Shown piece after piece: positions 4,923 to 63,999 of a stretch of 64,000 bases of DNA (positions are counted from its first letter, which is position 1; each line of letters begins with the position of its first letter). The position numbers were made by a program, and so were the translations under genes. Source of the stretch: an uncultured beta proteobacterium (GTDB lineage Bacteria > Pseudomonadota > Gammaproteobacteria > Burkholderiales > SG8-39). The DNA lies in assembly GCA_902826155.1 (NCBI GenBank), contig CADEDU010000005.1, positions 98,550 to 162,549 on the forward strand. Direction: 5' to 3'. Under the pieces are notes generated by a model, which was not told where the DNA came from, did no database searches, and saw only the letters and a list, made by a program, of their open reading frames with translations.

Positions 4923-4990
4923 ATGAGCGCGCTTTCCGCAGGCGGGAGCTTCGTTCGCGCTGAAATTAGCCTCCTCACGGAGCAACAACC

Positions 4991-15895: not shown

Positions 15896-16071
15896 CGGGT
15901 GAGTCGATCGATGAAAGCAGGCGGGCGCGCTATTCTCCATGTCCGGCGCAAAAGCGCCAAGCCAGCGCTGCCCGCACCGGGCCGGCGCGCAACGCAGACT
16001 CGCTCATGTCCAGCAGAACGAACTCGCCGGCGCGCACTGCCGGCACCTCCAGGCAGCCTATCGACTCCTCG

Positions 16072-32016: not shown

Positions 32017-32979
32017 ATGAAGAGACACCGTGTACTGCTGTCGCTGCTCGCGGCACTGATTCCAACGGTCGCGTTGGGTCAGGCCTATCCGGTCAAGCCG
32101 GTGAACATCATCGTGCCGTATCCGCCGGGCGGGCTGATCGATCTGGTCGCGCGCATCATCCAGCCGGAGATGCAAAAGGAGCTGGGCCAGTCGGTGTTGA
32201 TCGAGAATCGATCCGGTGCCGGCGGCAACGTGGGTGCGGAGTTCGTCGCACGCGCCGCCCCGGACGGCTACACCTTGCTGCTGGGCAACCCATCGCTCGG
32301 CATCAGCGAGAGCCTCTATCCCAAGCTCAACTATCGTCCGCTGCAGGATCTGGTCTACATCGGCCAGTACGGCAAGGTGCCCAACATCCTGACCGTGCAT
32401 CCGTCGTTTCCTGCCAAGAACATTCAGGAGCTGATCGCGCACCTGAAGAAGAATCCCGGCAAGTTCAACTACGGTTCGCCCGGCTACGGCACCTCGCCGC
32501 AGCTTTCGGTGGAACTGTTCAAGCAGCGCACGGACACCTTCATCGTTCACATTCCGTTCCGCGGCAGCGGCCCGGCAACGGCAGCGTTCATGGCGAACGA
32601 AGTGCAGATAATGTTCGACAACCTTCCGCCGCAGGTGCCGAACATCAAGGCGGGCAAGGCGCGCGCGCTGGCAGTGAGCAGCCTCAAGCGCTCGCCGGTG
32701 TTTCCCGACGTGCCGACTCTCGATGAAGCGGGGCTTAAGGGATTCGAGGTCACGTCCTGGTTCGGCTTGAACGCGCCGGCGGCCACGCCGAAGGAAGTCG
32801 TGGCGCGAATCAATCAGGCGCTCAACAAAGTCACCGCCACGCCAGATGTGCGCGAGAAGCTCACCTCGCGGGGTGCCGAAGTCATCCAGGGAACGCCCGA
32901 GCAGTATCTGGCGTTCGTGAAGGGTGAGTACGACAAGTGGGGGCCGGTGATCAAGCGTGCGGGGATCAAACCGGAGTGA
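32017..32979 (+). CDS. Bug-family tripartite tricarboxylate receptor
   Basis: This 320-residue protein has a signal peptide ending VALGQA. The Bug motifs are VNIIVPYPPGGLID, ENRSGAGGNVG and APDGYTLLLG. A GGAGGA lies 7 bases before the ATG. It is placed directly between the ribokinase and a convergent nucleoside hydrolase, so a nucleoside or sugar-derived ligand is possible, although the family usually binds small carboxylates. Confidence 0.92.
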   Translation: MKRHRVLLSLLAALIPTVALGQAYPVKPVNIIVPYPPGGLIDLVARIIQPEMQKELGQSVLIENRSGAGGNVGAEFVARAAPDGYTLLLGNPSLGISESLYPKLNYRPLQDLVYIGQYGKVPNILTVHPSFPAKNIQELIAHLKKNPGKFNYGSPGYGTSPQLSVELFKQRTDTFIVHIPFRGSGPATAAFMANEVQIMFDNLPPQVPNIKAGKARALAVSSLKRSPVFPDVPTLDEAGLKGFEVTSWFGLNAPAATPKEVVARINQALNKVTATPDVREKLTSRGAEVIQGTPEQYLAFVKGEYDKWGPVIKRAGIKPE

Positions 32980-43970: not shown

Positions 43971-44138
43971 GGTGTCCTCCAATGTTGCGTCAATCGATTT
44001 GTGATCTGCCGATGGCGCAGATTAGCGCAGATCGATGGCAACCGATCACACGCGCAGGGTCGTTCGCGTTCGATCGAATCCCTCATAATCGCCGGCGCTT
44101 TTCCACCCCTTCCAACACTCCGATCGAGGAGGCCGACG

Positions 44139-44797: not shown

Positions 44798-44824
44798 AAG
44801 GCGGCGCGTATCGCGCGCCGCCTT
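44798..44824. terminator. 11-bp perfect hairpin, bidirectional terminator
   Basis: AAGGCGGCGCG (44798-44808) pairs with CGCGCCGCCTT (44814-44824) across a 5-base loop. It lies between the convergent GST gene (stop at 44768) and a molybdenum hydroxylase gene whose stop codon begins at 44824. Flanking A and T pairs give it the look of an intrinsic terminator usable in both directions, though the T run is short. Confidence 0.7.
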
Positions 44825-47244: not shown

Positions 47245-47285
47245 CGCAGTGAGCTGGTCTGGACAAATGGTGGGAGGGCCGTGCA

Positions 47286-47314
47286 CTTATATTATGATCA
47301 GCGCCGATTGACAA
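47286..47314 (-). promoter_or_regulatory. Sigma-70-like promoter for the molybdenum hydroxylase gene
   Basis: On the minus strand TTGTCA (47314-47309) and TATAAG (47291-47286) are separated by 17 bases and would start transcription near 47279, about 35 bases before the ATG at 47244. The segment is AT-rich for this genome. On the plus strand TTGACA at 47308-47313 overlaps the same -35 and could serve the ABC operon, though its -10 is weak. Assigned by eye only. Confidence 0.55.
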
Positions 47315-47386
47315 ACCCGCGCCGCAGCGCGTGCATCTACGCACCGCCATGCGCCGCATGCCGAGTTTCTTCCTGGAGGATTGATC

Positions 47387-48364
47387 ATGCGTTGGTTCCC
47401 GCGGTTTGCACTGCCCGCGCTCGTCGCCGCGTCGACGGCGTTGGCCGCACCTGTCGCTATCGCGCAGGACAAGGTGAAGATGGCGTTGTTCATCGCCTCG
47501 TCGGCGATGCCGTACTTCATCGCCAACGAACGCGGCTATTTCAAGGCCGAGAACCTCGAAGTCGAAGGTGTGCCGCTCGCGAACCATCCGCTGATCGTCC
47601 AGGCGCTGGTCAAGGGCGACGTCGATACCGCCTCCAATCTGCTGTCGCTCGAAGGCGCGAACATCAACTCGATCCGCCCCGGCACGGCGAACTATTTTTC
47701 GATCAACTGCCAGAACACCAAATACCAGCTCGAAGCGTACGTGGTGTCGGCGAAGAACACGACGATCAAGTCGCTCAAGGATCTGAAAGGGCAGCGCATC
47801 ATGAGCGCACCCGGACCGGGCAACCTGTTCGTCGCCAAGGGCGTGCTGAAGGCCAATGGGCTGGAAGAAGGCCGCGACTACACGATGCAGGAACAGCAGA
47901 TGAGCGTGCATATCGGCGCGCTGCAGTCCGGGCAGTTCGAAGTGGCTTACACGCTCGAGCCGGTGGTGAGCATGATGGTTCATCGCGGCATCGGGCGCAG
48001 ACTGGAATCGGGCGTGATCGCCACGCACCTGCTCGGGCGGCCCGATGCGTGCGCGGTGCTCGCCGGCGGCGTGATGAGCGACAAATTCCTGAAGGAGCGT
48101 CCTCAGGTCGCCGAGCGCTTCGCACGTGCCTGGGCCAAGGCGCTGAAAGACGGTAACGATGATCCGAAAGCGCGCGAGCTGCTGGTCAAGCACATGAACA
48201 CCGCGGCGGAGATTGCACAGACGGTGCCGCTCTCGTACTACAACATGGTGCGCGATCTCTCGCCCGCTCAGATCGCCGATTTCCAGAAGCTCACTGATCT
48301 GGCCACGGCAGCTGGTCTGGTGAAAAACAAGATCGACGTCAAATCATTCCTGAAGACGTACTGA
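47387..48364 (+). CDS. NitT/TauT-type ABC substrate-binding protein
   Basis: This 325-residue periplasmic protein of the NMT1/SsuA/TauA type has a signal peptide ending VAIAQD, PYFIANERGYFKAENLEVEG near residue 45 and LVKGDVDTASN, the typical ligand-site repeats. The fold binds small organic anions, amines or heterocycles. A GGAGGA lies 8 bases before ATG 47387. It is the first gene of a complete three-gene importer and is divergent from a molybdenum hydroxylase gene. Confidence 0.9.
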   Translation: MRWFPRFALPALVAASTALAAPVAIAQDKVKMALFIASSAMPYFIANERGYFKAENLEVEGVPLANHPLIVQALVKGDVDTASNLLSLEGANINSIRPGTANYFSINCQNTKYQLEAYVVSAKNTTIKSLKDLKGQRIMSAPGPGNLFVAKGVLKANGLEEGRDYTMQEQQMSVHIGALQSGQFEVAYTLEPVVSMMVHRGIGRRLESGVIATHLLGRPDACAVLAGGVMSDKFLKERPQVAERFARAWAKALKDGNDDPKARELLVKHMNTAAEIAQTVPLSYYNMVRDLSPAQIADFQKLTDLATAAGLVKNKIDVKSFLKTY

Positions 48365-48413
48365 GCCACCGGGTCGATCCCTCCCCGCGCGCAGCAGGGA
48401 GGTCGAGCACGCG

Positions 48414-49172
48414 ATGAACGAACGGTTTGGTGTCCTGACGCCGGCGCTCGGCGCACTCGGCTTCCTGCTGCTGTGGTGGATCGTCTATCAGCTCAAGCTG
48501 ATCGACCCGGTGCTTTTGCCCTCGCCGGGCGACTCGATCAAGGCCATCTGGGATGGCTTCGTCGGCGGGGCGCTGATCAACGATTTCCTGATCACGGTGC
48601 GGCGCACGCTGCTCGCTTTCGTCATCGCGGTGGCGATTTCCGTACCGCTGGGCATCGTGCTCGGCTCGTCGCCACGCGTGTATCGATCGGTCGAATTCGT
48701 GATCGATTTTTTCCGCTCGACACCGGCCTCCGCATTGTTCCCGCTGTTCCTGGTCATTCTGGGCGTGGGCGAAGGCACCAAGATCGCGGTGGCGGCGTTC
48801 GGGGCGAGCCTGCTGATTCTGTTCAACACCGCCTATGGCGTGATGAACGCGCGCAAGACTCGCCAGGCCGCCGCGCGGGTGATGGGTGCTTCGAAGGCGC
48901 GCATCATGCTCGGCGTGACGCTGCTCGAGTCGCTGCCGCAGACGTTCGTCGGCATGCGCGCCGGCGTGTCGTTCGCGCTGGTGATCGTCATCGTCGCCGA
49001 GATGTTCATCGGCTCGACCGACGGGCTGGGTCAGCGCGTCATCAACGCGCAGTCGGTGTTCAACATGCCGGAAATGTACGCGACGATCTTCGCCGCCGGC
49101 GTGCTCGGATACGGGTTGAACCTGCTGTTCATCGTCATGGAGCGCCGATTCGTGCACTGGGGCGGCAAGTAA
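48414..49172 (+). CDS. NitT/TauT-type ABC permease
   Basis: This 252-residue membrane protein has about six helices and the EAA-like loop ARVMGASKARIMLGVTLLESLPQTFVGMR at about 155-185, which contacts the ATPase. The N-terminal LLPSPGDSIKAIWDG is typical of SsuC/TauC permeases. It lies 49 bases after the binding-protein gene and 14 bases before the ATPase gene. Confidence 0.92.
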   Translation: MNERFGVLTPALGALGFLLLWWIVYQLKLIDPVLLPSPGDSIKAIWDGFVGGALINDFLITVRRTLLAFVIAVAISVPLGIVLGSSPRVYRSVEFVIDFFRSTPASALFPLFLVILGVGEGTKIAVAAFGASLLILFNTAYGVMNARKTRQAAARVMGASKARIMLGVTLLESLPQTFVGMRAGVSFALVIVIVAEMFIGSTDGLGQRVINAQSVFNMPEMYATIFAAGVLGYGLNLLFIVMERRFVHWGGK

Positions 49173-49186
49173 CTTTCTTGATCCAC

Positions 49187-49978
49187 ATGAACGCTCCAAC
49201 TACACCGCAGGCTGTGACGACCGCTCCGACCCACATCACCATCCGCGGCTTGAGCAAGGCCTTCGGCGGCCAACCGCTCTACACCAACTTCGATCTCGAC
49301 ATCCCCAAGGGCCAGATCACCTCGGTGTTCGGACCGAATGGCTGTGGCAAGTCGACCATGATCAACATGGTCTCGGGCCTGCTCGACATGGATGCGGGCG
49401 AAGCGCTGTTCGACGGCAAGCCGCTCAAGGACACGGTGATCGGCTACGTGTTCCAGAACTACCGCGAGGCGCTGTTCCCGTGGAAGCGCGCGATCGACAA
49501 CATCAAGTACCCGCTGCAGATCGCCGGCAAGCCCAAGGGCGAATGCGATGCGCGTGCCGAGGAGCTGGTGCGCTCGTTCGACATCAAGTTCGACATGCAC
49601 CGCTATCCGTACGAGCTCTCGGGCGGACAGCAGCAGCTGGTGTCGATCATGCGCGCATTGGCGCCGCACCCCGAGGTGCTGTTTCTCGACGAGCCGTTCT
49701 CCGCGCTCGACTACGAGATGACGCTGTTCATGCGCGACAAGCTGCAGGATATCTTCCAGGCGACCGGGACGACGATGATCCTCGTCTCGCACGATCTGGA
49801 GGAGGCGGTATATCTGGCCGATCAGGTGCTGCTGCTCACCCGGCGGCCGGCACGCATCGCCGAGATCGTGCCGTTTCGCGCGCCGCGTCCGCGTCATCCC
49901 GAAACGCTTACGTCCGAAGAGTTCGTCCGAGCCAAGGCGCGCTGCCTCGAGGTGTTCCAGCGCGAAGTGCGCAAGTAA
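49187..49978 (+). CDS. NitT/TauT-type ABC ATPase
   Basis: This 263-residue ATPase has Walker A GPNGCGKST, Q-loop YVFQNYRE, signature LSGGQQQL, Walker B VLFLDEP and H-loop VSHD. It belongs with SsuB/TauB/NrtD-type importers and would power the transporter formed by the two genes before it. The chosen ATG 49187 leaves a 14-base gap to the permease; no strong ribosome site is seen before it, so translation may be partly coupled. Confidence 0.93.
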   Translation: MNAPTTPQAVTTAPTHITIRGLSKAFGGQPLYTNFDLDIPKGQITSVFGPNGCGKSTMINMVSGLLDMDAGEALFDGKPLKDTVIGYVFQNYREALFPWKRAIDNIKYPLQIAGKPKGECDARAEELVRSFDIKFDMHRYPYELSGGQQQLVSIMRALAPHPEVLFLDEPFSALDYEMTLFMRDKLQDIFQATGTTMILVSHDLEEAVYLADQVLLLTRRPARIAEIVPFRAPRPRHPETLTSEEFVRAKARCLEVFQREVRK

Positions 49979-51334: not shown

Positions 51335-52477
51335 ATGCTCCTTGATCAACTCGAAACGCCCGCACTCGTTCTCGATGCGGCGAAGCTCGAACGCAATGTC
51401 GCGCGCATGCGCGCCAAGACGCAGGCGCTCGGTGTCAGCCTGCGACCGCACGTCAAGACGCCCAAGTGCATCGAAGTCGCGCGACTGTCGACGGCCGCTG
51501 CCACCGGGCCGATCACGGTGTCCACGCTGAAGGAAGCCGAGTACTTCCTCGAGCATGGCGTCACCGACATGCTCTACGCCGTGGGCATTGCGCCGGGCAA
51601 GCTCGATCATGTGGCCGCGCTGCGACGCCGCGGTGCGCAGCTCTCGATCATCCTCGACAACGTCGAAGCGGCCAGCGCGGTGGTAGCGGCGAGTCGGCGA
51701 CTGGGCACGACCTTTCCGACGCTGATCGAGATCGATTGCGACGATCATCGCTCGGGCGTGAAGCCGGGCGACCCGGTGCTGCTCGCGATCGCTTCGACGC
51801 TGAAGCAGGGCAACGTGCCGCTGCGTGGCGTCATGACGCACGCCGGCAGCTCGTACAACTGCCCCTCGATCGTTGCCATCAAAGCGATGGCCGAACAGGA
51901 GCGCGCAGCCGTAGTGCGCTGTGCCGAAGCGCTTCGCGCGGCCGGGCATGCGATCGACGTCGTGAGCGTCGGTTCCACGCCGACCGCCACCTATGCCGAG
52001 CGGCTCGATGGTGTCACCGAAGTGCGCGCGGGCGTCTACGTGTTCTTCGATCTGGTCATGGCGGGCTTGGAAGTATGTTCCGTCGACGACATCGCGCTGT
52101 CGGTACTGGTCACCGTCATCGGTCATCAGCGTGACAAGGGCTGGGTAATCACCGACGGCGGCTGGATGGCCATGTCGCGCGATCGCGGTACCGCGAGCCA
52201 GCGCGTCGATCAGGGCTACGGCCTGGTGTGCGATCGCGATGGGCGGCCGCTCGACGATCTGATCGTCGCTTCGGCCAATCAGGAGCACGGCATCGTCGCT
52301 CGGCGCAGCGGTGATCCGCTCGATGTCGATCGTTTGATGCGGCAATTCGCACTGGGCACGCAGTTGCGCGTGCTGCCCAACCACGCGTGTGCGACCGGCG
52401 CACAGCATGGCGCGTACCACGTGGTGCGCGGCTCGCGTGATATCGAGGCGACGTGGACGCGGTTGAATGGGTGGTGA
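51335..52477 (+). CDS. DSD1-type PLP enzyme (D-threonine aldolase / D-serine dehydratase-like)
   Basis: This 380-residue protein of the alanine-racemase-N fold has the PLP-binding Lys41 in RPHVKTPKC and a C-terminal domain with NHACATGAQH (His350, Cys352), the metal site that marks the D-threonine aldolase/D-serine dehydratase family. It acts on D-hydroxy-amino acids. ATG 51335 is chosen because conserved sequence starts directly after it. It converges on a molybdenum hydroxylase gene, with 12 bases between stops. Confidence 0.9.
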   Translation: MLLDQLETPALVLDAAKLERNVARMRAKTQALGVSLRPHVKTPKCIEVARLSTAAATGPITVSTLKEAEYFLEHGVTDMLYAVGIAPGKLDHVAALRRRGAQLSIILDNVEAASAVVAASRRLGTTFPTLIEIDCDDHRSGVKPGDPVLLAIASTLKQGNVPLRGVMTHAGSSYNCPSIVAIKAMAEQERAAVVRCAEALRAAGHAIDVVSVGSTPTATYAERLDGVTEVRAGVYVFFDLVMAGLEVCSVDDIALSVLVTVIGHQRDKGWVITDGGWMAMSRDRGTASQRVDQGYGLVCDRDGRPLDDLIVASANQEHGIVARRSGDPLDVDRLMRQFALGTQLRVLPNHACATGAQHGAYHVVRGSRDIEATWTRLNGW

Positions 52478-52489
52478 GCGTCGCTGCTA

Positions 52490-54745
52490 TCAACCTCGCC
52501 CTGACTGTACCGCCCGCCAAATCTTCTCCGCCGTGAACGGCATGTCCGGCACCTGTGCCCCGAACTGACGGAGCGCATCTGCAACGGCATTGGCAACCGC
52601 CGCCGGCGCCCCGGTCGCGCCAGCCTCCCCAGCGCCCTTTGCGCCTAGTGGGTGGATCGGCGAGGCCGTAGGTGCATCGATCACACGAAACGAGGGCAAA
52701 TCGTCTGCGCGCGGGAGCGCGTAGTCCATCAGACTTCCCGTGAGCAGTTGACCCGAAACTGCGTCGTAGCGGCAATGCTCGAGTAACGCCTGGCCGATGC
52801 CCTGGGTCACTCCGCCGTGCACTTGCGCCGCGACGATGACAGGATCCTGCACGACCCCGAAGTCATCGACGGCGGTGAACGCGATCAGCTCGACGCTGCC
52901 CGTTTCCGGATCGATCTCGATCTCGGCGACGTGACAGCCGTTCGGAAAGGTGCGCACCGCGGGCACGCGTGACTCACTGTCGAAGGGGTGTGGTTGTCCT
53001 GAGTCCGGTGCGACCTCGCGCACGAGCGTGGCCATCGTCACCGCACGATCCGTTCCGATCACCCGAAACGTGCCGGCGTCGAACGCAACATCGGCCTCCG
53101 CGACTTCGAACTTCGCGGCCGCGGAGGCACGCGCCTTGCCGATGGATTCGTCGCATGCCACTTTGATGGCACCACCCGTTGCGGTCAGCGAGCGAGAGGC
53201 GATCGTCGACCCGCCTGCCAAAGTTGTCGCACTTGGCCCTGCATCAGTCGCATCGTGGAGCCCTTGCGAGAGTCGAATGTTCGCTTCGGGCATGCCCAGC
53301 AATCGAGCCGCGATCGCGGGAAACACTGTCTCATGCGCCTGACCGGACGATTGCGTGGCCGCGAGCACTTCGATCGTCCCATCAGCGGCGAAGCGCAGTG
53401 CCGCACCTTCCTCGGGCGGACCACCGGTGGCCTCGATAAACGATGCGAGGCCGATGCCGCGCAGCCGTCCTCGGAATCGGGCTTCCTCGCGCCTTGCTGA
53501 AAATCCGGACCAATCCGCCTCCTGCAAGGCGCGTTCGAGCACGCCGACGAAATTTCCCGAGTCGTACTGCACGCCGTGCGCGGTCGTGTGGGGAAAGGTA
53601 CGAACCATATTGCGTCGGCGTAGTTCGATCCGATCGACGCCGATCCGTGCCGCGGCTTCGTCGACCAGCCGCTCGATTGCGAATGCCATCTCCGGACGTC
53701 CTGCGCCGCGGTAGGGGCCGACCGGTGGAGTGTTGGTCACCATGCACCGGACGATGCCATCGATGGCGCCGACTTCGTACACGCCTGCCATGCTGCGTCC
53801 CGGATTGAACGCGGCGATGAATGCACCGGCCTTGGCGATGTGTGCGCCGAGGTTGGACCGGAACTCGAAGCGCATCGCCTGAAAACGCCCGTCGCGATCG
53901 AGTGCGAGCTCCGCCTTCTGCACCACATCGCGCGCGTGATACTCCGAAAGGAAAGCTTCGGCGCGACTGGACAGCCAAGCGATCGGTCGGTGGAGCCTCC
54001 TCGCCGCGACGAGCAACGTGACGTACTCGGCGTAGACCGGCTCCTTGACGCCGAATGCACCGCCGATGTCGGGCGTTTCGATCCAGACCCGATCGGGCGC
54101 AATGTTCAGCACGTGCGCGAGCTGTGTACGCATCGATTGCGCGCCCTGGTGACTCACCCGCAGGCTGAATCGCCCGGTCGCGGCGTCGAATCGGGCGATC
54201 GCCCCGCGCGGTTCGAGCGGATGGCCGACGATCCGATTCGCGCGTAGCTCCAGTGCGAAGTGATGGTCCGCTCGGTCGAACGCCACCTGCGCGTTTGCCG
54301 GATCGCCATGGCCCATCGCGAAGCACTCTCGCGTGGATGCTGCTGGATCGGTGACCGCCGCAAGATCATCGTATTCGACGGCAATCGCTTCGATCGCATC
54401 TTGAGCCTCGAAGGGAGTCCGGGCGACGACGATTGCGATCGGCTCGCCGACATACGCGACTCGATCGATTGCGAGCGCTGCGCGTGGCGGCGGCGCGAGC
54501 GGTTTCACGATCCGTCCGGGCGGGACGGTCACCAGGAAATCGGCGAGTCCTTCCGCGGCTAGGTCGGTACCGCGAATCACCTCGAATACGCCTGGCAGCG
54601 CCCGTGCCGCGTCCAGATCGACCGAGCGAATCAGAGCGTGCGGCCGATCCGAGCGGAGAAACGCTGCGTGCAGTGTTTCTGCAGTGAGCGCATCGGCGCA
54701 GTAATGACCCGTGCCGGTTAGAAAGCGTTGATCTTCGCGGCGCAT
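52490..54745 (-). CDS. CoxL-type molybdenum hydroxylase large subunit, no partner genes
   Basis: This 751-residue large subunit begins directly at RREDQRFLTGTGHY, so it lacks the short leader usual in relatives. It has PDIGGAFGVKEPVYAEY (GGAFG rather than GGGFG), GPYRGAGRPEMAF and active-site GAKGAGEAGATG with the catalytic Glu. It starts 7 bases after the ABC permease stop, and so is the last gene of a deaminase-ABC importer-hydroxylase set. No electron-transfer subunits are adjacent. Confidence 0.92.
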   Translation of the reverse strand: MRREDQRFLTGTGHYCADALTAETLHAAFLRSDRPHALIRSVDLDAARALPGVFEVIRGTDLAAEGLADFLVTVPPGRIVKPLAPPPRAALAIDRVAYVGEPIAIVVARTPFEAQDAIEAIAVEYDDLAAVTDPAASTRECFAMGHGDPANAQVAFDRADHHFALELRANRIVGHPLEPRGAIARFDAATGRFSLRVSHQGAQSMRTQLAHVLNIAPDRVWIETPDIGGAFGVKEPVYAEYVTLLVAARRLHRPIAWLSSRAEAFLSEYHARDVVQKAELALDRDGRFQAMRFEFRSNLGAHIAKAGAFIAAFNPGRSMAGVYEVGAIDGIVRCMVTNTPPVGPYRGAGRPEMAFAIERLVDEAAARIGVDRIELRRRNMVRTFPHTTAHGVQYDSGNFVGVLERALQEADWSGFSARREEARFRGRLRGIGLASFIEATGGPPEEGAALRFAADGTIEVLAATQSSGQAHETVFPAIAARLLGMPEANIRLSQGLHDATDAGPSATTLAGGSTIASRSLTATGGAIKVACDESIGKARASAAAKFEVAEADVAFDAGTFRVIGTDRAVTMATLVREVAPDSGQPHPFDSESRVPAVRTFPNGCHVAEIEIDPETGSVELIAFTAVDDFGVVQDPVIVAAQVHGGVTQGIGQALLEHCRYDAVSGQLLTGSLMDYALPRADDLPSFRVIDAPTASPIHPLGAKGAGEAGATGAPAAVANAVADALRQFGAQVPDMPFTAEKIWRAVQSGRG

Positions 54746-54752
54746 CGCAGGT

Positions 54753-55592
54753 TCAGGCGTCGCGGCCGGTCTGCTCGGCTTGGACTGCCCATGGGAAGAA
54801 CCAGCGCTCGACCACCACGATGAGCTGAAACAACGCCACGCCCATCACTGCCAGCAGGATCACTGCGCCGAAGGCGAGCGGGACATTGAAGAACGCGGTC
54901 GATTGCGTGATGAGATAGCCCAATCCCTGATTCGCGGTGACGAACTCCGCGACCACCGCGCCGATCACCGATAGCGAGATGGACACCTTCAATCCACTGA
55001 AGATGAATGGCACCGCCGAGGGCAAGCGGATCAGCCATAGGTCCTGCAGAAAGCTGGTACGCATCACCCGTGACAGCTCGACAGTCTCGCGTGGCGTCGA
55101 AATGAGTCCGGTGACCGTGCTGACGAGCAGTGGAAAAAACGCGATGAGGAAGGTGATCGTCGTTCGGGAGAGCTGCCCGGTGCCCAGGATCACGACGAGA
55201 ATCGGCGCGATCGCGATGATCGGCGTCGATTGCGTGATCAGCAGCAGCGGATACACCGCGCGGGCCACCCATGGCGAAGATGCGATGGCCACGGCGATCG
55301 GCAGGGACAACGCAACCGAGGCGACAAAGCCCAACAGCACCGTGAGCAAAGTCGCGCCGATGTTGGGCCAAAGCTTCACGCCCAGCTTGTCGAGCTCGGT
55401 GATCACCTTCGACGGTGCCGGCAGCAGGTAGGGTGGAATCTTGAGTGCCCGTACCAGGGTCTCCCATAGCGCGACCACCAGCACCAAAGTCGCGATCGGA
55501 ATCAGGGCGCCCTGCCAGCTGCGCCAAAGCCGCGCGCTGCTAGAGAGCTGCGGCAGCAGTCGCTCGGGCGGGGTCGTTGCCGTAGATGACAT
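54753..55592 (-). CDS. NitT/TauT-type ABC permease
   Basis: This 279-residue membrane protein with about six helices has LPAPSKVITELDKL near residue 55 and an EAA-like loop LSRVMRTSFLQDLWLIRLPSAVPFIFSGL around 165-195. ATG 55592 overlaps the end of the ATPase gene by 53 bases, and the stop lies 7 bases before the hydroxylase start, so all are translated from one message. It forms the channel for the NMT1/THI5-like importer. Confidence 0.92.
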   Translation of the reverse strand: MSSTATTPPERLLPQLSSSARLWRSWQGALIPIATLVLVVALWETLVRALKIPPYLLPAPSKVITELDKLGVKLWPNIGATLLTVLLGFVASVALSLPIAVAIASSPWVARAVYPLLLITQSTPIIAIAPILVVILGTGQLSRTTITFLIAFFPLLVSTVTGLISTPRETVELSRVMRTSFLQDLWLIRLPSAVPFIFSGLKVSISLSVIGAVVAEFVTANQGLGYLITQSTAFFNVPLAFGAVILLAVMGVALFQLIVVVERWFFPWAVQAEQTGRDA

Positions 55593-56340
55593 GGCGTATG
55601 GATTGCGTGGCGCGCTGGAACTCGGCGTGCGCCATCGATTCGAGATTGCGAGGGCGCGGCAGGGCGATGTGTTCTTCAAGCGCGATACGTCCTGGTCGAG
55701 GCGACATTACGACGACCCGATCGGCGAGCAGCACCGCTTCGGGGATCGAATGCGTGACGAACACGATCGTCTTGCGCCGCTCGCTCCAGATTCGCAGCAA
55801 CTCGAAGCACATCGCCTCGCGCGTCAAGGCGTCCAGCGCGCCGAACGGCTCATCCATCAACAGGATGTCCGGATCTTGAATCAGCGCCCGACAGATTGCG
55901 GCGCGCTGCTGCATCCCGCCGGACAACTCGTGCGGCAGTTTGGACGCGAACTGATCGAGCCCGACGAGTCGCAGCAACCCACGGGCACGCGCGCGATCAT
56001 CGTCGCCGACGCGCTTGCGCCGCACGCGGATCGGCATGAGCACATTCGCCTCGATGCTCTGCCAGTGCAAGAGCGTCGGCTTCTGGAACACCATGCCGAG
56101 TCGGTCGAGATGCTCCTCCACCGCGGTGCCATGCAGCCGGACGCTGCCGCGCGTCGGCGCGACCAAGCCGGCGGCCAGTCGCAGCAGCGTCGATTTGCCG
56201 CAACCCGAGGGGCCGACGATCGCGACGAATTCGCCGTCATCGATCGTCAGCGACAGCTCGCGCAGCGCGAGGACCTCGCTGCCGTCCGCAGATTCGAATG
56301 CCTGCCACAGGTCGCCGAAGGCAACTGCAGGGCTACTCAT
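55540..56340 (-). CDS. NitT/TauT-type ABC ATPase
   Basis: This 266-residue ATPase has Walker A GPSGCGKST, Q-loop MVFQKPTLL, signature LSGGMQQR, Walker B ILLMDEP and H-loop VTHS. It is closest in style to ThiZ/SsuB ATPases. ATG 56340 overlaps the stop of the binding-protein gene (ATGA); a longer frame to 56427 adds an unconserved leader. It powers the importer encoded by its two neighbours. Confidence 0.93.
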   Translation of the reverse strand: MSSPAVAFGDLWQAFESADGSEVLALRELSLTIDDGEFVAIVGPSGCGKSTLLRLAAGLVAPTRGSVRLHGTAVEEHLDRLGMVFQKPTLLHWQSIEANVLMPIRVRRKRVGDDDRARARGLLRLVGLDQFASKLPHELSGGMQQRAAICRALIQDPDILLMDEPFGALDALTREAMCFELLRIWSERRKTIVFVTHSIPEAVLLADRVVVMSPRPGRIALEEHIALPRPRNLESMAHAEFQRATQSIRHVIYGNDPARATAAAAL

Positions 56341-57368
56341 CGACGCGGCAACAAGTCTCGAGTGACAAAGGACTCCGGATCGGTGCTTTTCACGTCTAGT
56401 TGCTGCGCTTCGGCCACCGTTTCCCACGTCCGGCGCAGTTGTGCCGCATCGAACGATCCCGCAGGCAGGCGCTTGCCGATGTCGCTGTCGAAGGTGAGCG
56501 TGTTGGCGATCTCGGCGGCACCGAGCTCGCGAGCCGGGTCAAGCCCGGTCACCAGCTTGGCCATCGACTCCACGGCGCCACGCGGATTAGTGCGCGCGAA
56601 TTCGATCCCGCGCAGCGTCGCGGCGACGAAGTTTCGCGCAACATCGGGGCTCTTGGCGAGCGTGGACTCGGCGGCGATGAGGGCGTTGCCGTAGATCTGC
56701 AGTGTCTCGGCAAACTGCAGCACGCGCACCTCCTTGCCGGCCTCCTTGGCCATCGAAGCGAATCGGGGTTGATTCGCGAGAAACCCGGTGACCGCATTGG
56801 CCTTGCCCGAAATGAGCAGCGGCCCCATCGTCGCCGGCTCGGAATTGATCAGGTTGACCTTGTTGATATCGACGTTGTTGCGCTTGAGCACGAGCGGCAA
56901 AAAGAGCCGCACCGAGCTGCCCGGTGCCCCCGCGAGGCTCTTGCCCTCCAAGTCCTTGAACGTCTTGATGCCTGAATCGGCCAGCACGAACACGGAGTGA
57001 GGCGGTCGCGTGAAGATCGATGCGATTGCCTTTACCGGTGTCTGCGAGCGGACGCGGCCGGTCATCACGGCGGCGATGTCGGCGACACCAAACGGCGCGA
57101 CGCCGGTTGCGATTTTGGTAACGGTGTCCGACGAGCCGAAGCCGCGCTCGATTGTGACGTTCAGGCCGGCCTCTTTGTAGAAGCCCCGATCGAGCGCCGC
57201 ATAGTAGGCCGCGTAGTCACCCGTGGGGACCCAATCGAGCAGCAGCTTCACGTCCTGCGCCGAGGCCGGCGCCGCAAAGAACGATATCGACAGGCCGAGT
57301 GCGGCGATCGCGCGAAACATGCGCTGTGGCCGGGGTACGGCGCTCCACAATCGAGCGGGGGTATTCAA
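56337..57368 (-). CDS. NMT1/THI5-like ABC substrate-binding protein
   Basis: This 343-residue periplasmic protein has the THI5/NMT1 ligand signature LLLDWVPTGDYAAYYAALDRG followed by ERGFGSSDTV and FGVADIAAVMTGR. ThiY-type relatives bind pyrimidine precursors. I choose a TTG start at 57368, which has AGGAG 8 bases upstream; an ATG at 57320 (FRAIAALGLSISFFAAPASAQ) would give a shorter, normal signal peptide and is possible. It lies 84 bases after a zinc deaminase gene on the same strand. Confidence 0.9.
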   Translation of the reverse strand: MNTPARLWSAVPRPQRMFRAIAALGLSISFFAAPASAQDVKLLLDWVPTGDYAAYYAALDRGFYKEAGLNVTIERGFGSSDTVTKIATGVAPFGVADIAAVMTGRVRSQTPVKAIASIFTRPPHSVFVLADSGIKTFKDLEGKSLAGAPGSSVRLFLPLVLKRNNVDINKVNLINSEPATMGPLLISGKANAVTGFLANQPRFASMAKEAGKEVRVLQFAETLQIYGNALIAAESTLAKSPDVARNFVAATLRGIEFARTNPRGAVESMAKLVTGLDPARELGAAEIANTLTFDSDIGKRLPAGSFDAAQLRRTWETVAEAQQLDVKSTDPESFVTRDLLPRR

Positions 57369-57452
57369 GGCAATCACTCCTGGTTGTTGGGATCGAGAGG
57401 ACTGACGGGCGATGACCCTTGCCGTCACGCCGCGACTATACCGTGGGCGATT

Positions 57453-57941
57453 TCAAGCGCGGCCCCAGAAGCCGGCGTGCACCACTGCCGCTTCGTCCTC
57501 CAGCGTCGGCCCGATCACTTCGATCGGGCGCTGCCCGCGCGCGAACACCTCGCGGCAGGGGAGCGCGAGCGTGGGGTTCTCCGGATGGTTGCCCGTCAGG
57601 CGAAGCAGCGTGCGTTCACTGAGCGCGTAGACGACGCGGCCGATGTTGGTCCAATAGATCGCGCCGGCGCACATGCAGCAGGGCTCCGCGCTCGTGTATA
57701 GCGTGCAGCGCGCGAGCTGTTCGGGCGAGAGCAACCTGGCTGCCTGGGCTGCGGCGCGCATCTCGGCGTGCTGAGTCGGATCGCCCTCGGGCGGCATCGA
57801 GTTGTTGCCCGCCTGCGCTATGACATTGCCGTGTTCATCGGCGACGAGCGCCGCGAACGGATGGCGCCCGTCGGCTCGGGATTGCGCGGACAGCTCGATC
57901 GCCCGACGCAGGAGGGCCGACTCGGAGACGGTGAGGGACAT
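57453..57941 (-). CDS. Guanine-deaminase-like zinc deaminase
   Basis: This 162-residue protein of the cytidine/deoxycytidylate deaminase fold has zinc ligands His58 (HAE with proton-shuttling Glu60), Cys88 and Cys91 in EPCCMCAGAIYW. GAIYW after the second Cys is typical of guanine deaminase and related base deaminases, rather than of tRNA adenosine deaminase. It converts an amino-purine or amino-heterocycle to the oxo form. It is the first gene of the minus-strand set that continues with the ABC importer and a molybdenum hydroxylase. Confidence 0.9.
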   Translation of the reverse strand: MSLTVSESALLRRAIELSAQSRADGRHPFAALVADEHGNVIAQAGNNSMPPEGDPTQHAEMRAAAQAARLLSPEQLARCTLYTSAEPCCMCAGAIYWTNIGRVVYALSERTLLRLTGNHPENPTLALPCREVFARGQRPIEVIGPTLEDEAAVVHAGFWGRA

Positions 57942-58134
57942 CGGCGCGCGTGGCCTTGCGGTGTTTGGCGGGTCTTCGCACCATGTGTACGAAGACGTGA
58001 GGGGTGACGAGTGCGACTGCGGTTATCGTAGCCCAGACCGCTGCGCGCGCGATCACCACCCGCGTGCGGCGATAGCTGCTTCGATCATGCTGGCGTACGA
58101 TCGCGCCACCCGTTGCATCCGTTCCATGTGATCC

Positions 58135-59118
58135 ATGACGACGAATCCCCGCTTGAGGATTTACAGCTTCGCCCTCGCAGCAGCCCTGGCTGTGCTCGCA
58201 TCACCGTACGCGCACGCCCAGAAGTACCCCGACCGTCCCGTGCGTCTGATCGTGCCGTTCGCCCCGGGTGGCGGCACCGACATTCTCGGCCGCGTGATCG
58301 CCCCGAAGCTCGCCGAAGGACTGGGGCAGCCGGTGCCGGTGGAGAACCGTGCTGGTGCCGGCAGCAACATCGGTGCTGATGCGGTGGCGAAAGCGCCGGC
58401 CGATGGCTACACGGTGCTGCTGGGCTCGAACACGCAAGCCATCAACGCGAGCCTCTACTCGAAGCTGCCGTTCGACACGATCCGAGACTTCGCGCCGGTG
58501 AGTCTGTTGGCGGTTGCGCCGATGGCGTTCGTTGCGCATCCGAGTGTGCCCGTCAAGACGATCGGCGAGTTGATCGCGCTCGCCAAACGCGATCCGGGCA
58601 AACTCAATTTCGCCTCGCCGGGCACCGGGACGCCGCATCACATCGCGGCCGAACTGTTCATGCGCATGGCCAACGTCACCGTCACGCAGGTGCCGTACAA
58701 GGGCGCGGGGCCGGCGCTCACCGACGTGCTCGGCGGTCAGGCGCAGTTCACCGTGCAGACGCTCGCGGCCGTGCGCCAGCACATCGGTGCGGGCAAGGTC
58801 ACCGCCCTGGGCATGGCCTCGGGCAAGCGCGCGCAGGTGGCGCCGGATATTCCGACCGTGGCCGAGTCCGGCCTGCCCGGCTACGAGGCGGAACTCTGGT
58901 TCGGCATTCTGGCGCCTGCGTCCACGCCGGCGGCCATCATCGATCGCTTGAACGCGGAGATCGTGCGCACGATGGCGGCACCCGAGATCCGCGAGCGGCT
59001 GCAGGCGCAAGGCTTCGAGCTGCGCACGTCCACGCCAGCCGAAATGGTGCAGCTATTGAAATCGGACATCGACAAGTACGCCCGCGTCATCCGCGAAGGC
59101 AACATCAAAGTGGAATGA
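58135..59118 (+). CDS. Bug-family tripartite tricarboxylate receptor
   Basis: This 327-residue protein has a signal peptide ending YAHAQK and Bug motifs VRLIVPFAPGGGTDILG, ENRAGAGSNIG and APADGYTVLLG. It is divergent from the deaminase operon, with 193 bases between. Its stop is followed at once by an 18-base tandem repeat and then the YrdC-domain gene. Ligand is unknown. Confidence 0.93.
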   Translation: MTTNPRLRIYSFALAAALAVLASPYAHAQKYPDRPVRLIVPFAPGGGTDILGRVIAPKLAEGLGQPVPVENRAGAGSNIGADAVAKAPADGYTVLLGSNTQAINASLYSKLPFDTIRDFAPVSLLAVAPMAFVAHPSVPVKTIGELIALAKRDPGKLNFASPGTGTPHHIAAELFMRMANVTVTQVPYKGAGPALTDVLGGQAQFTVQTLAAVRQHIGAGKVTALGMASGKRAQVAPDIPTVAESGLPGYEAELWFGILAPASTPAAIIDRLNAEIVRTMAAPEIRERLQAQGFELRTSTPAEMVQLLKSDIDKYARVIREGNIKVE

Positions 59119-59869: not shown

Positions 59870-60847
59870 TCACTCGACCTTGATGTTGCCGTCCTTCACC
59901 ACCTTGGCCCAGCGCTTGATCTCCGCGCCGATGAACGCGTTCACCTCGGCGGGTGTGGCCGGTGCCGCCGGTTCGGCACCAAGCTTGGCGTAGCGGTCCT
60001 TCATTTCCGCCTCGCCGCTCGCACGCACGATCTCCTGATTGATCTTGGCGACGATGTCCGCCGGCGTCTTGGCGGGCGCGACGATCAGGAACCACGCGTT
60101 GAACTCATAGCCCGGCACGCCGGCTTCGGCGAGCGTCGGTTGATCGGGCAACTGTGGCGTGCGCTTCGCGGTGGTGACACCGAGTGCGCGCAGCTTGCCT
60201 TGCTTGATGAACCCGCCCGAGGAGATCACCGGATCGAGCATCACGTCGACGCGACCGGCCACCAGATCCTGCACCGCCGGCGCTGCGCCCTTGTACGGCA
60301 CGTGCAACATCTCGACGCCTGCCAGCTGCGCGAGCAGTGCGGCGGCCATGTGACTCGTGGTCGCATTGCCCGATGACGCGTACTTGAGCTGCCCCGGTTT
60401 GGCCTTCGCCAGCGCGATCAACTCGCGCACGTTGTTCGCCGGCACCGACGGATGCACCAACAGCACGTTCGGCACCGAGGCCACCAGCGCTACGCCGGTG
60501 AGATCGGCCTGCGTGTCGAACGGCAGCTTGGCGTACAGACTCGGATTCACCGCGTGGCCGACCGTAACGATCAGCAGCGTGTAGCCATCGGGTGCGGCGC
60601 GCGCAGCCGCCTCGGTAGCGATGATGCCGCCCGCGCCGGGGCGATTCTCGACCACGCTCTGATGCTTCCACGCGTCGCCCAGTCGCTGACCGATCAAGCG
60701 GCCGAAGGTGTCGGCCGCGCCACCCGGCGGAAACGGCACCAGGATGCGGATCGGTCGTGACGGAAAGTCGGCCGCTTGCGCACGAACGACGATCGGGGCA
60801 ACCAGCCCACAACACAACACCAAGAACGACGCGAGAATCCGATGCAT
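59870..60847 (-). CDS. Bug-family tripartite tricarboxylate receptor
   Basis: This 325-residue protein has a signal peptide ending VVRAQA, with RPIRILVPFPPGGAADTFG, ENRPGAGGIIA and APDGYTLLIV as Bug loops. It is the last gene of a minus-strand set after the amidase (88-base gap) and ends 3 bases from the convergent YrdC gene. It may bind the amide or ureide that its operon partners hydrolyse. Confidence 0.93.
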   Translation of the reverse strand: MHRILASFLVLCCGLVAPIVVRAQAADFPSRPIRILVPFPPGGAADTFGRLIGQRLGDAWKHQSVVENRPGAGGIIATEAAARAAPDGYTLLIVTVGHAVNPSLYAKLPFDTQADLTGVALVASVPNVLLVHPSVPANNVRELIALAKAKPGQLKYASSGNATTSHMAAALLAQLAGVEMLHVPYKGAAPAVQDLVAGRVDVMLDPVISSGGFIKQGKLRALGVTTAKRTPQLPDQPTLAEAGVPGYEFNAWFLIVAPAKTPADIVAKINQEIVRASGEAEMKDRYAKLGAEPAAPATPAEVNAFIGAEIKRWAKVVKDGNIKVE

Positions 60848-60935: not shown

Positions 60936-62360
60936 TCAAGCCAGCGGCGGTTCGAACCGCATGTCGACCATCTGCTCGATCAGCCGCGCGAACTGCAAGA
61001 CGCGCGCGTCTTCATTGCGCGGCCCGACCACCTGCATGCCCACCGGCAGACCCTTCACCAGACCAGCTGGCACCGAACACGCAGGGGCACCGGCGATGTT
61101 GAACAGCGGCGTAAACACGGCATGCCCGCGCGGTAATGCCGGTTTGCCTTCGATCTCGGTCGGGTAGGGCTCATCGACCGGCCAGGTGGTGATCGGCGTG
61201 GTCGGGCACAGCAGCACGTCGTAGCGCTCGAAGAACTCTGCGAGTGCCGCGTGGATCTTCTCGCGCGTGAGCAGCGCCGTGGCCAGATCGACCCCGTTGC
61301 GCTCGAGGCCTGCTTCGATCATCTTCACCGAATCCGGATCGATATCGTCGCGGCGCGCGGCCAGGTGCTTGCCGAACAGCATCGCCAACCCAGCCTGCTG
61401 AATCGGCAGCTGCGGCGCCTGCTCCAGGCCCTCGGGCCAGTGCGGGTCGGCGTTTTCGATCGAGTAGCCCTCGGCACGCAGCTTCGCCACGATGCCTTCG
61501 AACACTTCCATCACGTCGTGGTCGACCGCGAAGCCCTGGCCTAACCGCGGGCTCCACGCCACCCGTAGCGACATCGGCGGCGCCTTGCGCACTGCACGTA
61601 CCAGTTTCACTTGACCGAGCGGCACCGACTCCGGATCGACCGGCACGTAGTCGATGATCGACTCCAGCATCAGCGCGGTGTCTTCCACATCGCGGGCGAA
61701 ACACCCGGTGACCGAGATGCCGAAATTCGGATCGGGGAATCCCCACGGCTGCGGCACCACACCCCGGCTCGGTTTCATGCCGACGACACCCGCATGGGCG
61801 GCCGGCCTGCGGATCGAACCACCCGCATCAGTGCCCAGCGCGAGCGCACCCATGCGCGCGGCCGTTGCACTGGCTGCTCCGCCCGATGAGCCGCCGGTCG
61901 TCATGCGCGTGTCCCAGGGGTTGCGCGTGATGCCATAGACCAGGTTGTTGGTCATCAGCTTCCAGGTGAACTCCGAGCAGTTGGTCGCGCCGAGGACCAC
62001 TGCGCCTAACGAACGCATCCGCGCGACCACCCACGAATCGCGCGGGGCGATGAAATCGCCGAACAGCTTCGAGCCGTACGTCGCACGGCGGCCGGCCACC
62101 CACAGGCTGTCCTTCACGGTGAACGGAATGCCGGCAAGTGGCAGCGACTCCCCCGCCGCGATGCGTTTATCGACCGCTTCGGCTTCGGCCAGCACTGCCG
62201 CAGGGTCGAAGCTCACAATGGCGTTGAGCTGCGAGTTGAACTGCCTGGTGCGCTCGATCGCGGCAGCACAGGCTTCACGCGCCGAGAACTTCTTCGAGCC
62301 GACGCCGCTGGCGATTTCGCGCGCCGACATCTCGGCGAGATCCCGCGATCTGGGTTTCAT
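60936..62360 (-). CDS. Amidase-signature hydrolase
   Basis: This 474-residue amidase has the catalytic triad Lys83 (FTVKDSL), cis-Ser158 (TTGGSSGG) and nucleophile Ser182 (GTDAGGSIRRPA). It hydrolyses a carboxamide in the cytosol. The ATG at 62360 overlaps the stop of the racemase-like gene (ATGA). With the PuuE-like and racemase-like genes upstream, a ureide- or hydantoin-derived amide is a reasonable guess. Confidence 0.93.
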   Translation of the reverse strand: MKPRSRDLAEMSAREIASGVGSKKFSAREACAAAIERTRQFNSQLNAIVSFDPAAVLAEAEAVDKRIAAGESLPLAGIPFTVKDSLWVAGRRATYGSKLFGDFIAPRDSWVVARMRSLGAVVLGATNCSEFTWKLMTNNLVYGITRNPWDTRMTTGGSSGGAASATAARMGALALGTDAGGSIRRPAAHAGVVGMKPSRGVVPQPWGFPDPNFGISVTGCFARDVEDTALMLESIIDYVPVDPESVPLGQVKLVRAVRKAPPMSLRVAWSPRLGQGFAVDHDVMEVFEGIVAKLRAEGYSIENADPHWPEGLEQAPQLPIQQAGLAMLFGKHLAARRDDIDPDSVKMIEAGLERNGVDLATALLTREKIHAALAEFFERYDVLLCPTTPITTWPVDEPYPTEIEGKPALPRGHAVFTPLFNIAGAPACSVPAGLVKGLPVGMQVVGPRNEDARVLQFARLIEQMVDMRFEPPLA

Positions 62361-63112
62361 GACGTGCTCGGCGGATTGCGAAACAACGCCGCGAGTTCGG
62401 CGCCGACGCCCGAGACGTTGCGCGGACCCGGCAGGCGCACGCTGCCCACCTTGGGCTTGGGAAGGTCGAGCTTCACCAGCATCTCGGCCATCGGCACTGC
62501 CGCGGCCATGCAATCGATCAGCGGCACCGGACAGCGCGGTTGCAACTCGTCGCGAAAGCCCGCCATCGCGGCACCGCCCAACACGATCGCTTCGGCGCCA
62601 TCGTGCTCGATCGCGCGCGTGGCCAGCGTGACGATCGCATCGAGCACCTTCTCGCGGGCGTTGAAGGTTGCTTCCGCAGGCAGGTCGATCGCATCGACCC
62701 GCACACAGCGGCCGGCCAGCCCGTAGCTCGCGACCTGATCGAGATAGGTGGCGATCATGTGCCGGCCGTAGCTGAGCACCGCGAAGCGCGTGGCAACCAG
62801 ACACGCCGCGTGCACGCCCGCTTCGGTCATCCCCACCACCGGCATCGCGAACAACTCGCGCAGGCCCCACAGTGCGGTATCGAGCGATACGCCGAGCACG
62901 ATCGCGTCGTGACCCGGGCTGTGCTTGGCGGCCAGCTCGAGGATGCCGTGCGCGGCAACGGCGTTCTCGGCGCGGCTGGTGATGACCTGTGGGCCGAACG
63001 TACCGGTCACCGCGGTGATCTCGGTGCCGGGCGAGGCGACGCGTCGTGCTGCGGCGGCAACCGCGTCGGTCACCGCCTGGGTCATGTTGGGATTGATCAC
63101 GAGCAGCTTCAT
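62357..63112 (-). CDS. Asp/Glu/hydantoin-racemase family protein without the catalytic cysteines
   Basis: This 251-residue protein begins LLVINPNMTQAVTDAV, the hydantoin/allantoin-racemase start. The two positions that normally carry the catalytic Cys pair read VLGVSLD (Val75) and LGGAAMAG (Gly180), so the two-base racemase mechanism is not possible. It may be an isomerase, lyase or decarboxylase such as Asp/Glu-racemase-like maleate isomerase relatives, or a non-catalytic partner. Both ends overlap neighbouring genes by 4 bases, so all three are translationally coupled. Confidence 0.88.
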   Translation of the reverse strand: MKLLVINPNMTQAVTDAVAAAARRVASPGTEITAVTGTFGPQVITSRAENAVAAHGILELAAKHSPGHDAIVLGVSLDTALWGLRELFAMPVVGMTEAGVHAACLVATRFAVLSYGRHMIATYLDQVASYGLAGRCVRVDAIDLPAEATFNAREKVLDAIVTLATRAIEHDGAEAIVLGGAAMAGFRDELQPRCPVPLIDCMAAAVPMAEMLVKLDLPKPKVGSVRLPGPRNVSGVGAELAALFRNPPSTS

Positions 63113-63999
63113 CGAGGCGGCACCTTGTCGAGCCAGAATCGGGCAATGTCTTCACGCCGGGCGAACCATACGTTGCCCTTGGCGCGCATGTGTTCGAGCG
63201 CGCTCGCCAGCCCCTGGATGCGACCGGGCCGACCGATGATGCGCGTATGCAGGCCGATCGACATCATGCGCGGCTGGTGCGCGCCTTCGCGCCACAGCCA
63301 CTCGAAACTGTCGACGCAGTAGTCGGCGAAATCGCTCGCGCGCACGAACGAGAACGAGTCGAAGAACCGCATGTCGTTGGTGTCGAACGCGTAGGGCACG
63401 ACCAGATGCGGCCGGCCGAGCACCTCGACGTAGTACGGCGCTTCGTCGTTGTACGCATCGCTGTCGTAGAGGAACCCGCCGTGCTCCACCAGCAGCCGGC
63501 GCGTGTTCACCGACGGCGACGACTTGGTATGCCAGCCCACCGGCGCCTTGCCCTGCAGGCGCTTGATCGAGTCGACCGCCCGCGCGATCAGCTTGCGCTC
63601 GGCACCTTCTTCCATGCCGGCGTGTGATTCCCAGCGCCAGCCATGGCAGCAGATCTCGTAGTTGCGCTTGGTGGCATCAGCGGGGATCCAGGGCGTGGCT
63701 TCGAGCGCGCGCGAGCAGGCGTTGAGCGTGAGCGGGACGCGCAGACTGTCTAGCAGGTTGGTGATGCGCCAATAGCCCACGCGCGCACCGAACTCGAAGT
63801 GGCTCTCCATGCACAAGTCGGGCGCGCCGACCACCTCATGATTGACCTCGTGCCGGGCTTCGTTGCGCTCATCGCCGGCTGAGAGCGCCAGCTCGGCGCC
63901 TTCCTCGACGTTGAGCACGACGGACACCGCCAGCTGTGCGCCGTTGGGCCAGCGCACGTCGGGATAGTGCTGGGCGTAACCGTGCAGATCGCGGGGCAT
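63109..63999 (-). CDS. PuuE-like polysaccharide-deacetylase-family hydrolase
   Basis: This protein has 296 residues from the ATG at 63999, one base inside the window edge, so a longer N-terminus cannot be excluded. It begins PRDLHGYAQHYPDVRWPNG, close to the start of PuuE-type allantoinases, and has LNVEEGAEL, EICCHGWRWESH and SPSVNTRRLL, a deacetylase-like fold. PuuE members open the allantoin ring without the usual amidohydrolase site. It is the first visible gene of a coupled set with a racemase-like gene and an amidase. Confidence 0.88.
   Translation of the reverse strand: MPRDLHGYAQHYPDVRWPNGAQLAVSVVLNVEEGAELALSAGDERNEARHEVNHEVVGAPDLCMESHFEFGARVGYWRITNLLDSLRVPLTLNACSRALEATPWIPADATKRNYEICCHGWRWESHAGMEEGAERKLIARAVDSIKRLQGKAPVGWHTKSSPSVNTRRLLVEHGGFLYDSDAYNDEAPYYVEVLGRPHLVVPYAFDTNDMRFFDSFSFVRASDFADYCVDSFEWLWREGAHQPRMMSIGLHTRIIGRPGRIQGLASALEHMRAKGNVWFARREDIARFWLDKVPPR

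Follow-up and report, generated by a model that had tools for sequence, protein, structure and literature searches.

A candidate purine-scavenging operon with an NMT1/THI5-type importer, a deaminase and a lone molybdenum hydroxylase subunit in an uncultured beta proteobacterium

The genes described here lie at positions 52490 to 57941 of a 64,000-nucleotide stretch of DNA from an uncultured beta proteobacterium (contig CADEDU010000005.1), the whole of which we call the window. Reading the open reading frames (ORFs) of the window gave five genes in this region, all on the minus strand and uninterrupted, listed here in reading order:

57453..57941, minus strand: deaminase of the cytidine-deaminase superfamily, guanine-deaminase-like, 162 amino acids
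56337..57368, minus strand: NMT1/THI5-type periplasmic substrate-binding protein, 343 amino acids, TTG start at 57368
55540..56340, minus strand: ATP-binding cassette (ABC) transporter ATPase, 266 amino acids, ATG start at 56340
54753..55592, minus strand: ABC transporter permease, 279 amino acids, ATG start at 55592
52490..54745, minus strand: lone large (molybdopterin) subunit of a molybdenum hydroxylase, 751 amino acids, with FGVKE and YRGAGR motifs

The deaminase and binding-protein genes are separated by 84 bases, given the TTG start, which matches the start of the identical protein P0001 and has GGAGTG upstream. The binding-protein and ATPase genes overlap by 4 bases, the ATPase and permease genes by 53, and the large-subunit gene follows the permease gene on the same strand after a gap of 7 bases. 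A first-pass annotation, made from the letters alone, had given exactly these spacings, and all five gene products pass Pfam cut-offs. A scan of the locus for promoters and terminators was uninformative (no promoter-like sites; 3 terminator-like sites versus 3.7 in shuffled sequences).

The deaminase was recognized by dCMP_cyt_deam_1 (PF00383, 76.6 bits) and by MafB19-deam, both above the Pfam cut-offs, and its translation contains the zinc motifs HAE and PCCMC. Its best matches of solved structure are "CMP/dCMP deaminase" entries (8WLW and 5XKQ, 77 bits), with the guanine deaminase 1WKQ at 70 bits, and its kin adjoin a nucleobase:cation symporter in two of four plasmid neighborhoods (H21 and H29, not H25 and H43). 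The binding protein matches NMT1 (PF09084) with 149.6 bits, above the Pfam cut-off, and in a fold ranking ThiY, a thiamin-bound protein and THI5 come out as the solved structures closest to it, above the binders of sulfonate, nitrate and taurine; this rank makes taurine, sulfonate and nitrate less likely as ligands. The ATPase (ABC_tran, PF00005, 114.5 bits) and the permease (BPD_transp_1, PF00528, 90.6 bits) share 73% and 79% identity, respectively, with their counterparts at L001, one of the four closest genome loci (L001 to L004).

The order and strand of the binding-protein, ATPase and permease genes, hereafter the triad, were kept in 27 of the 29 loci (L001 to L029) recovered by a pattern-based genome scan, which can miss members; the other two (L022 and L024) end at a contig edge. 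This conserved order is more than chance. Among genomes drawn evenly from the classes of genomes G001 and G002, further triads were sought at an E value of 1e-100 and found in 1 of 369 and 1 of 289, the center genomes only, while the families of G001 and G002 gave 1 of 11 and 2 of 12 genomes at 1e-90, all already known.

A complete molybdenum hydroxylase adjoins the triad in all four of the closest genome loci, which represent three lineages, and each of them also contains an amidohydrolase. At L001 a CoxM-CoxL-CoxS set precedes the triad with a TctC gene between them, the amidohydrolase follows the triad, and a second set, whose medium subunit was named from its translation alone, is found on the other strand. 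In the two Phreatobacter loci (L002 and L003) the triad is followed by CoxM-CoxL-CoxS, with the amidohydrolase further on. At L004 CoxM-CoxL-CoxS again comes after the triad, and a gene for an 8-oxoguanine deaminase (624.7 bits, cut-off 532) is divergent from it. The PucD xanthine dehydrogenase is the best model for the large subunits of L003 (548 bits), L004 (534 bits) and the second set of L001 (574 bits), and XdhA for that of the first L001 set (514 bits of 780). The amidohydrolase of L001 reached 337 bits of 522 with the 5'-deoxyadenosine deaminase model; those of L002 and L003 were compared by Pfam or similarity only. Directly after the molybdenum hydroxylase set, both Phreatobacter loci code for a 373-residue protein (L003 15937-17058, L002 7630-8751; 98% identical), and the L003 copy has no Pfam or NCBIfam match at an E value of 0.001.

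As a control we took 40 NMT1 loci, every third list row, with flanks of up to 8 kb on either side, from 58 genomes in the class to which G002 belongs; L104 and L105 were set aside as members of the amidohydrolase clade, leaving 38. A molybdenum hydroxylase was present in 2 of these 38 stretches (L110 and L117), compared with 3 of 3 lineages with one beside the triad when L002 and L003 are counted as a single lineage, which gives a Fisher p value of 0.00094, or 0.00013 with the window included. Kinship among the lineages and the choice of the window for this very feature make these values rough. Several control stretches (L101, L125, L132 and others) run out at a contig end, which favors the contrast. 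Across the more distant loci L005 to L026, 17 of 22 have an amidohydrolase after the triad, with three ending at a contig edge and two without one, counts that are not independent because several of the loci are from Reyranella.

The link to purines comes from relatives on plasmids. Where importers share 36 to 41% identity with that of the window, we read the gene sets on four plasmids (L033 to L036). L033, on a Paracoccaceae plasmid, contains LysR followed by a tadA-type deaminase, substrate-binding protein, ATPase, permease, amidohydrolase and 2-oxoglutarate (2OG)-Fe oxygenase, so that its order from deaminase to permease is the same as that of the first four genes of the window; the two deaminases, in the same place in the run, are 49% identical over 157 residues. 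L034 (Qingshengfaniella) has substrate-binding protein, ATPase, permease, amidohydrolase and 2OG-Fe oxygenase, and L036 (Rhizobium) has substrate-binding protein, ATPase, permease, 2OG-Fe oxygenase, LysR and a gene annotated as "cytosine deaminase". Scans with Rfam, which took in 31 related and control loci and left out L013, L018 to L020, L022, L024 and L027 to L029, placed four aptamers of the xanthine riboswitch RF03054 above the gathering score in L033, L034 and L036:

L033 12995-13046: RF03054 aptamer, before the 2OG-Fe oxygenase gene
L034 8783-8840: RF03054 aptamer, before the binding-protein gene
L036 8700-8748 and 11567-11612: two RF03054 aptamers, one before a small annotated ORF that is followed by the binding-protein gene, the other before the 2OG-Fe oxygenase gene

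The fourth plasmid locus, L035 (Ponticoccus), has a triad without a directly adjoining deaminase and gave no riboswitch match. The RF03054 RNA, or NMT1 motif, has been reported to bind xanthine and uric acid and to switch genes off (Yu and Breaker 2020, PMC7373994), and the neighboring genes that its authors name include NMT1/THI5-like genes, tadA, the 8-hydroxyguanine/guanine deaminase (an amidohydrolase) and a dioxygenase. When 54 binding proteins were placed in a tree, the clade of the window (12 rows, support 100/100) is the sister of a riboswitch-linked clade (9 rows, 100/99) at 97/89; the tree is unrooted, and this relation holds only with the root outside both clades. The clade followed by amidohydrolases joins these two in a weaker fork (94/75), together with other NMT1 proteins, and the binding protein of control locus L113 sits on a long branch on the riboswitch side. 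The riboswitch-linked sister clade and the 8-oxoguanine deaminase beside one triad point to purines as the likely substrate class, with pterins possible.

The large subunit has all three expected domains above the Pfam cut-offs (Ald_Xan_dh_C, PF01315; MoCoBD_1, PF02738; MoCoBD_2, PF20256), and its best solved relatives are CoxL (8UEM), 6-hydroxypseudooxynicotine dehydrogenase and quinoline 2-oxidoreductase, although this CoxL-like protein passes no NCBIfam cut-off. Oxidation of carbon monoxide is made unlikely by the scores with the CO dehydrogenase models (407 to 459 bits versus cut-offs of 950 to 991), and we take the YRGAGR motif to differ from the form I CoxL loop. Its Glu235 and Arg346 align with the Glu of GGKE and the Arg of FRGFGG in two canonical XdhB rows from Phreatobacter genomes, positions that we take to be Glu802 and Arg880 of bovine xanthine oxidase, which hold the purine. 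Among the 120 homologues listed, of 4706 found, eight have the xanthine-pocket Glu, and every one of the six at 61% identity or more is among them; these six (P0195 to P0200, 61 to 81% identity) are protein records without genomic context. The position of Glu235 is occupied by Asp in L003, L004 and the second set of L001 and by Leu in the first set of L001.

The first-pass annotation had called this subunit lone, which agrees with what we found: beside its gene no flavin adenine dinucleotide (FAD) or 2Fe-2S subunit was recognized, and the small and medium subunits that could be recognized in the window lie elsewhere, at 1966-2379 and 4991-6013, where they accompany a different large subunit. 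These form the sole complete molybdenum hydroxylase set recognized in the window (1966-6013; small, large, medium subunit), and two further lone large subunits are found at 41637-43982 and 44824-47286. Lone large subunits seem to be ordinary in this clade, because small or medium subunits were not recognized in 30 of 33 stretches around relatives (L137 to L156 and L187 to L199, some of which end at contig edges), the exceptions being L141, L154 and L155. A search for close kin of the protein in the orders of G001 and G004 reached at best 47% and 50% identity.

From these comparisons we consider it probable that the operon scavenges an aminopurine, most likely guanine or a guanine-like oxidized purine, which would be imported, deaminated and hydroxylated towards urate. 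The periplasmic NMT1-type protein would bind the purine base and the ATPase and permease, judging from their fold and kin, would import it. The enzyme with the cytidine-deaminase fold is predicted from its family to take off the 2-amino group, converting guanine to xanthine, and the molybdenum hydroxylase subunit may oxidize a ring carbon beside a nitrogen, converting xanthine to urate, with electrons presumably passing through small and medium subunits encoded elsewhere. The version at L004 would run from guanine to 8-oxoguanine and on to urate. The comparison of loci suggests that the importer is constant while the enzymes at each step change fold. The first-pass annotation had proposed an uptake and breakdown route for an amino-substituted N-heterocycle; the grouping of importer, deaminase and hydroxylase in one route is supported by the contrast between the closest loci and the controls, and the likely substrate can now be narrowed to the purine class. 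A search for the same five-gene order, one of the checks that it suggested, gave no second case in the genomes covered; the large subunits beside other triads are of another family than that of the window, and a deaminase of this type adjoins a triad only in L033.

Several observations weigh against the purine-scavenging operon. The large subunit scores far under the xanthine dehydrogenase cut-offs (166.3 of 849.5 bits with TIGR02965, XdhB; 204.2 of 783.65 with TIGR03196, PucD), and it belongs to another family than those beside the triad in L001 to L004, whose own PucD scores (534 to 574 bits for L003, L004 and the second set of L001) also fall below 783.65. Canonical XdhB is encoded elsewhere in three of the four genomes G001 to G004, so the triad-linked molybdenum enzyme may act on something else. 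The deaminase passes no NCBIfam cut-off, and of the 33 loci L001 to L029 and L033 to L036, L033 alone has a deaminase of its type next to the triad; L001 to L004 carry amidohydrolases in its place, and a deaminase cut-off was passed by the L004 one alone. An amidohydrolase is also present in 4 of the 38 control stretches (L103 and L111, which overlap, L106 and L136), at least 1.7 kb from the binding-protein gene. No Rfam match was obtained up to an E value of 5 in 52300-58300, nor at gathering across the whole window, and RF03054 was not found at gathering in L001 to L004. The 2OG-Fe reference proteins matched nothing in the window, so that no dioxygenase was recognized in the run. Last, none of the 33 extended loci read around the best-ranked relatives of the large subunit (44 to 50% identical) showed the triad's binding protein.

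This last result also favors the view that only the first four genes form a unit, a purine importer with its deaminase, and that the large subunit is an orphan CoxL-type neighbor, unrelated or there by chance. Such genes are common: the window has three lone ones besides its complete set, a relative at an E value of 1e-150 or better is found in 86 of 399 genomes from the order to which G001 belongs, and at one of the relatives' loci (L147) there are different ABC ATPase and permease genes close by. The gap of only 7 bases on the same strand behind the permease gene speaks against a chance neighbor, as do the molybdenum hydroxylases of other families that adjoin the triad in all four closest genome loci and the xanthine-pocket Glu, which is found in the six closest listed homologues and in only two of the other 114 listed. 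We consider an unrelated large subunit unlikely. Should the large subunit belong to the route, one may go further and see in the tight lone CoxL-type clade with the FGVKE motif a purine hydroxylase of a new sort, one that acquired the residues of the xanthine pocket independently, works with borrowed electron-carrying subunits and takes the place of the dioxygenase in the xanthine-riboswitch-type sets. The importer clade would then be a purine-specific NMT1 branch whose deaminase and oxidizing enzyme are freely exchanged between folds. This wider proposal is tentative, and we regard it as doubtful.

The substrate could also be a pterin (pterin itself, isoxanthopterin or a folate breakdown product), which would be imported, deaminated to lumazine and hydroxylated at C7. 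Xanthine oxidoreductases act on pterins too, and L033 has an amidohydrolase whose annotation reads isoxanthopterin deaminase and whose best solved match (402 bits) is 2PAJ, which we take to be that enzyme; upstream in the same locus there are folD and a gene annotated as homocysteine methyltransferase/methylenetetrahydrofolate reductase. Yet the riboswitch of that very L033 cluster senses xanthine and uric acid (PMC7373994) and L004 has an 8-oxoguanine deaminase, which leaves a pterin quite improbable. A role in the salvage of thiamin pyrimidines, with a ThiXYZ-type transporter for hydroxymethylpyrimidine (HMP) or formylaminopyrimidine (FAMP), would fit the nearest solved structures of the binding protein (ThiY, the thiamin-bound protein and THI5). 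The enzymes neighboring the triad are deaminases and hydroxylases, and the window differs from the ThiXYZ/ThiY importer in having both as neighbors and no match to the thiamin pyrophosphate (TPP) riboswitch; neither the window nor any of the 31 related and control loci scanned yielded this RNA at the gathering score, a weak argument, as many true members may lack one. The NMT1/THI5-like genes of the NMT1 motif are also described by Yu and Breaker as distinct from those of thiamin metabolism (PMC7373994), and thiamin salvage seems very improbable to us.

Other genes of the window touch on similar chemistry. A second NMT1-type importer (47381-48364, 48414-49172 and an ATPase at about 49286-49933, within 44824-49978) starts 94 bases from the lone large subunit at 44824-47286, which has the opposite reading direction, with a CaiB-type CoA-transferase and a D-serine-dehydratase-like gene next. 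Outside the operon, a run at 60936-63999 codes for an amidase, an Asp/Glu/hydantoin racemase and a PuuE-like allantoinase (312.7 bits, cut-off 424.6), which could handle allantoin downstream of urate. A pair of hydantoinase A and B genes (oxoprolinase type) is found at 16006-20144, and there are five TctC-type (Bug) receptors (1013-1906, 30093-30986, 32080-32976, 58135-59118 and 59870-60847), the last two just upstream of the operon.

Purines are oxidized to urate by a multi-subunit oxidase in the Bacillus puc cluster, and the Klebsiella hpx cluster uses dioxygenase-like enzymes; to our knowledge, an NMT1-type importer is not known from either. NMT1-type ABC importers are usually labeled as nitrate, taurine or sulfonate transporters, and the purine link gives one clade of them a testable substrate. 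The first-pass annotation knew of no described system with this gene order. That claim fails, because a related gene set had already been published (Yu and Breaker 2020), and the SAR11 genes (PMC11698098) are another related set in print; the five-gene order itself was not found in open-licence papers. The sets linked to the xanthine riboswitch (RF03054, PMC7373994, where the hpx cluster is also cited for purine oxidation to urate) resemble the locus in their NMT1/THI5-type genes, from a sister clade of binding proteins, in their tadA-type or amidohydrolase deaminases and in having ring-oxidizing enzymes. They differ in that the window has no recognizable riboswitch and has a molybdenum hydroxylase subunit where those sets have a 2-oxoglutarate/Fe(II) dioxygenase (pcbC type), whose precise functions were not established according to the authors (PMC7373994). 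For SAR11, an ABC transporter for purines is listed together with tadA-type purine deaminases and subunits of xanthine dehydrogenase (Sci Adv 2025, PMC11698098); an ABC transporter, a deaminase and a molybdenum subunit have counterparts in the window, and what sets the SAR11 genes apart is that an FAD subunit and steps for urate and allantoin are listed as well. The locus adds a version with a lone molybdenum subunit as the predicted oxidizing enzyme, a kind of gene that is common in these genomes without recognized partners. It is probably a variant of a known purine system, from which it differs by this lone subunit and by the missing riboswitch.

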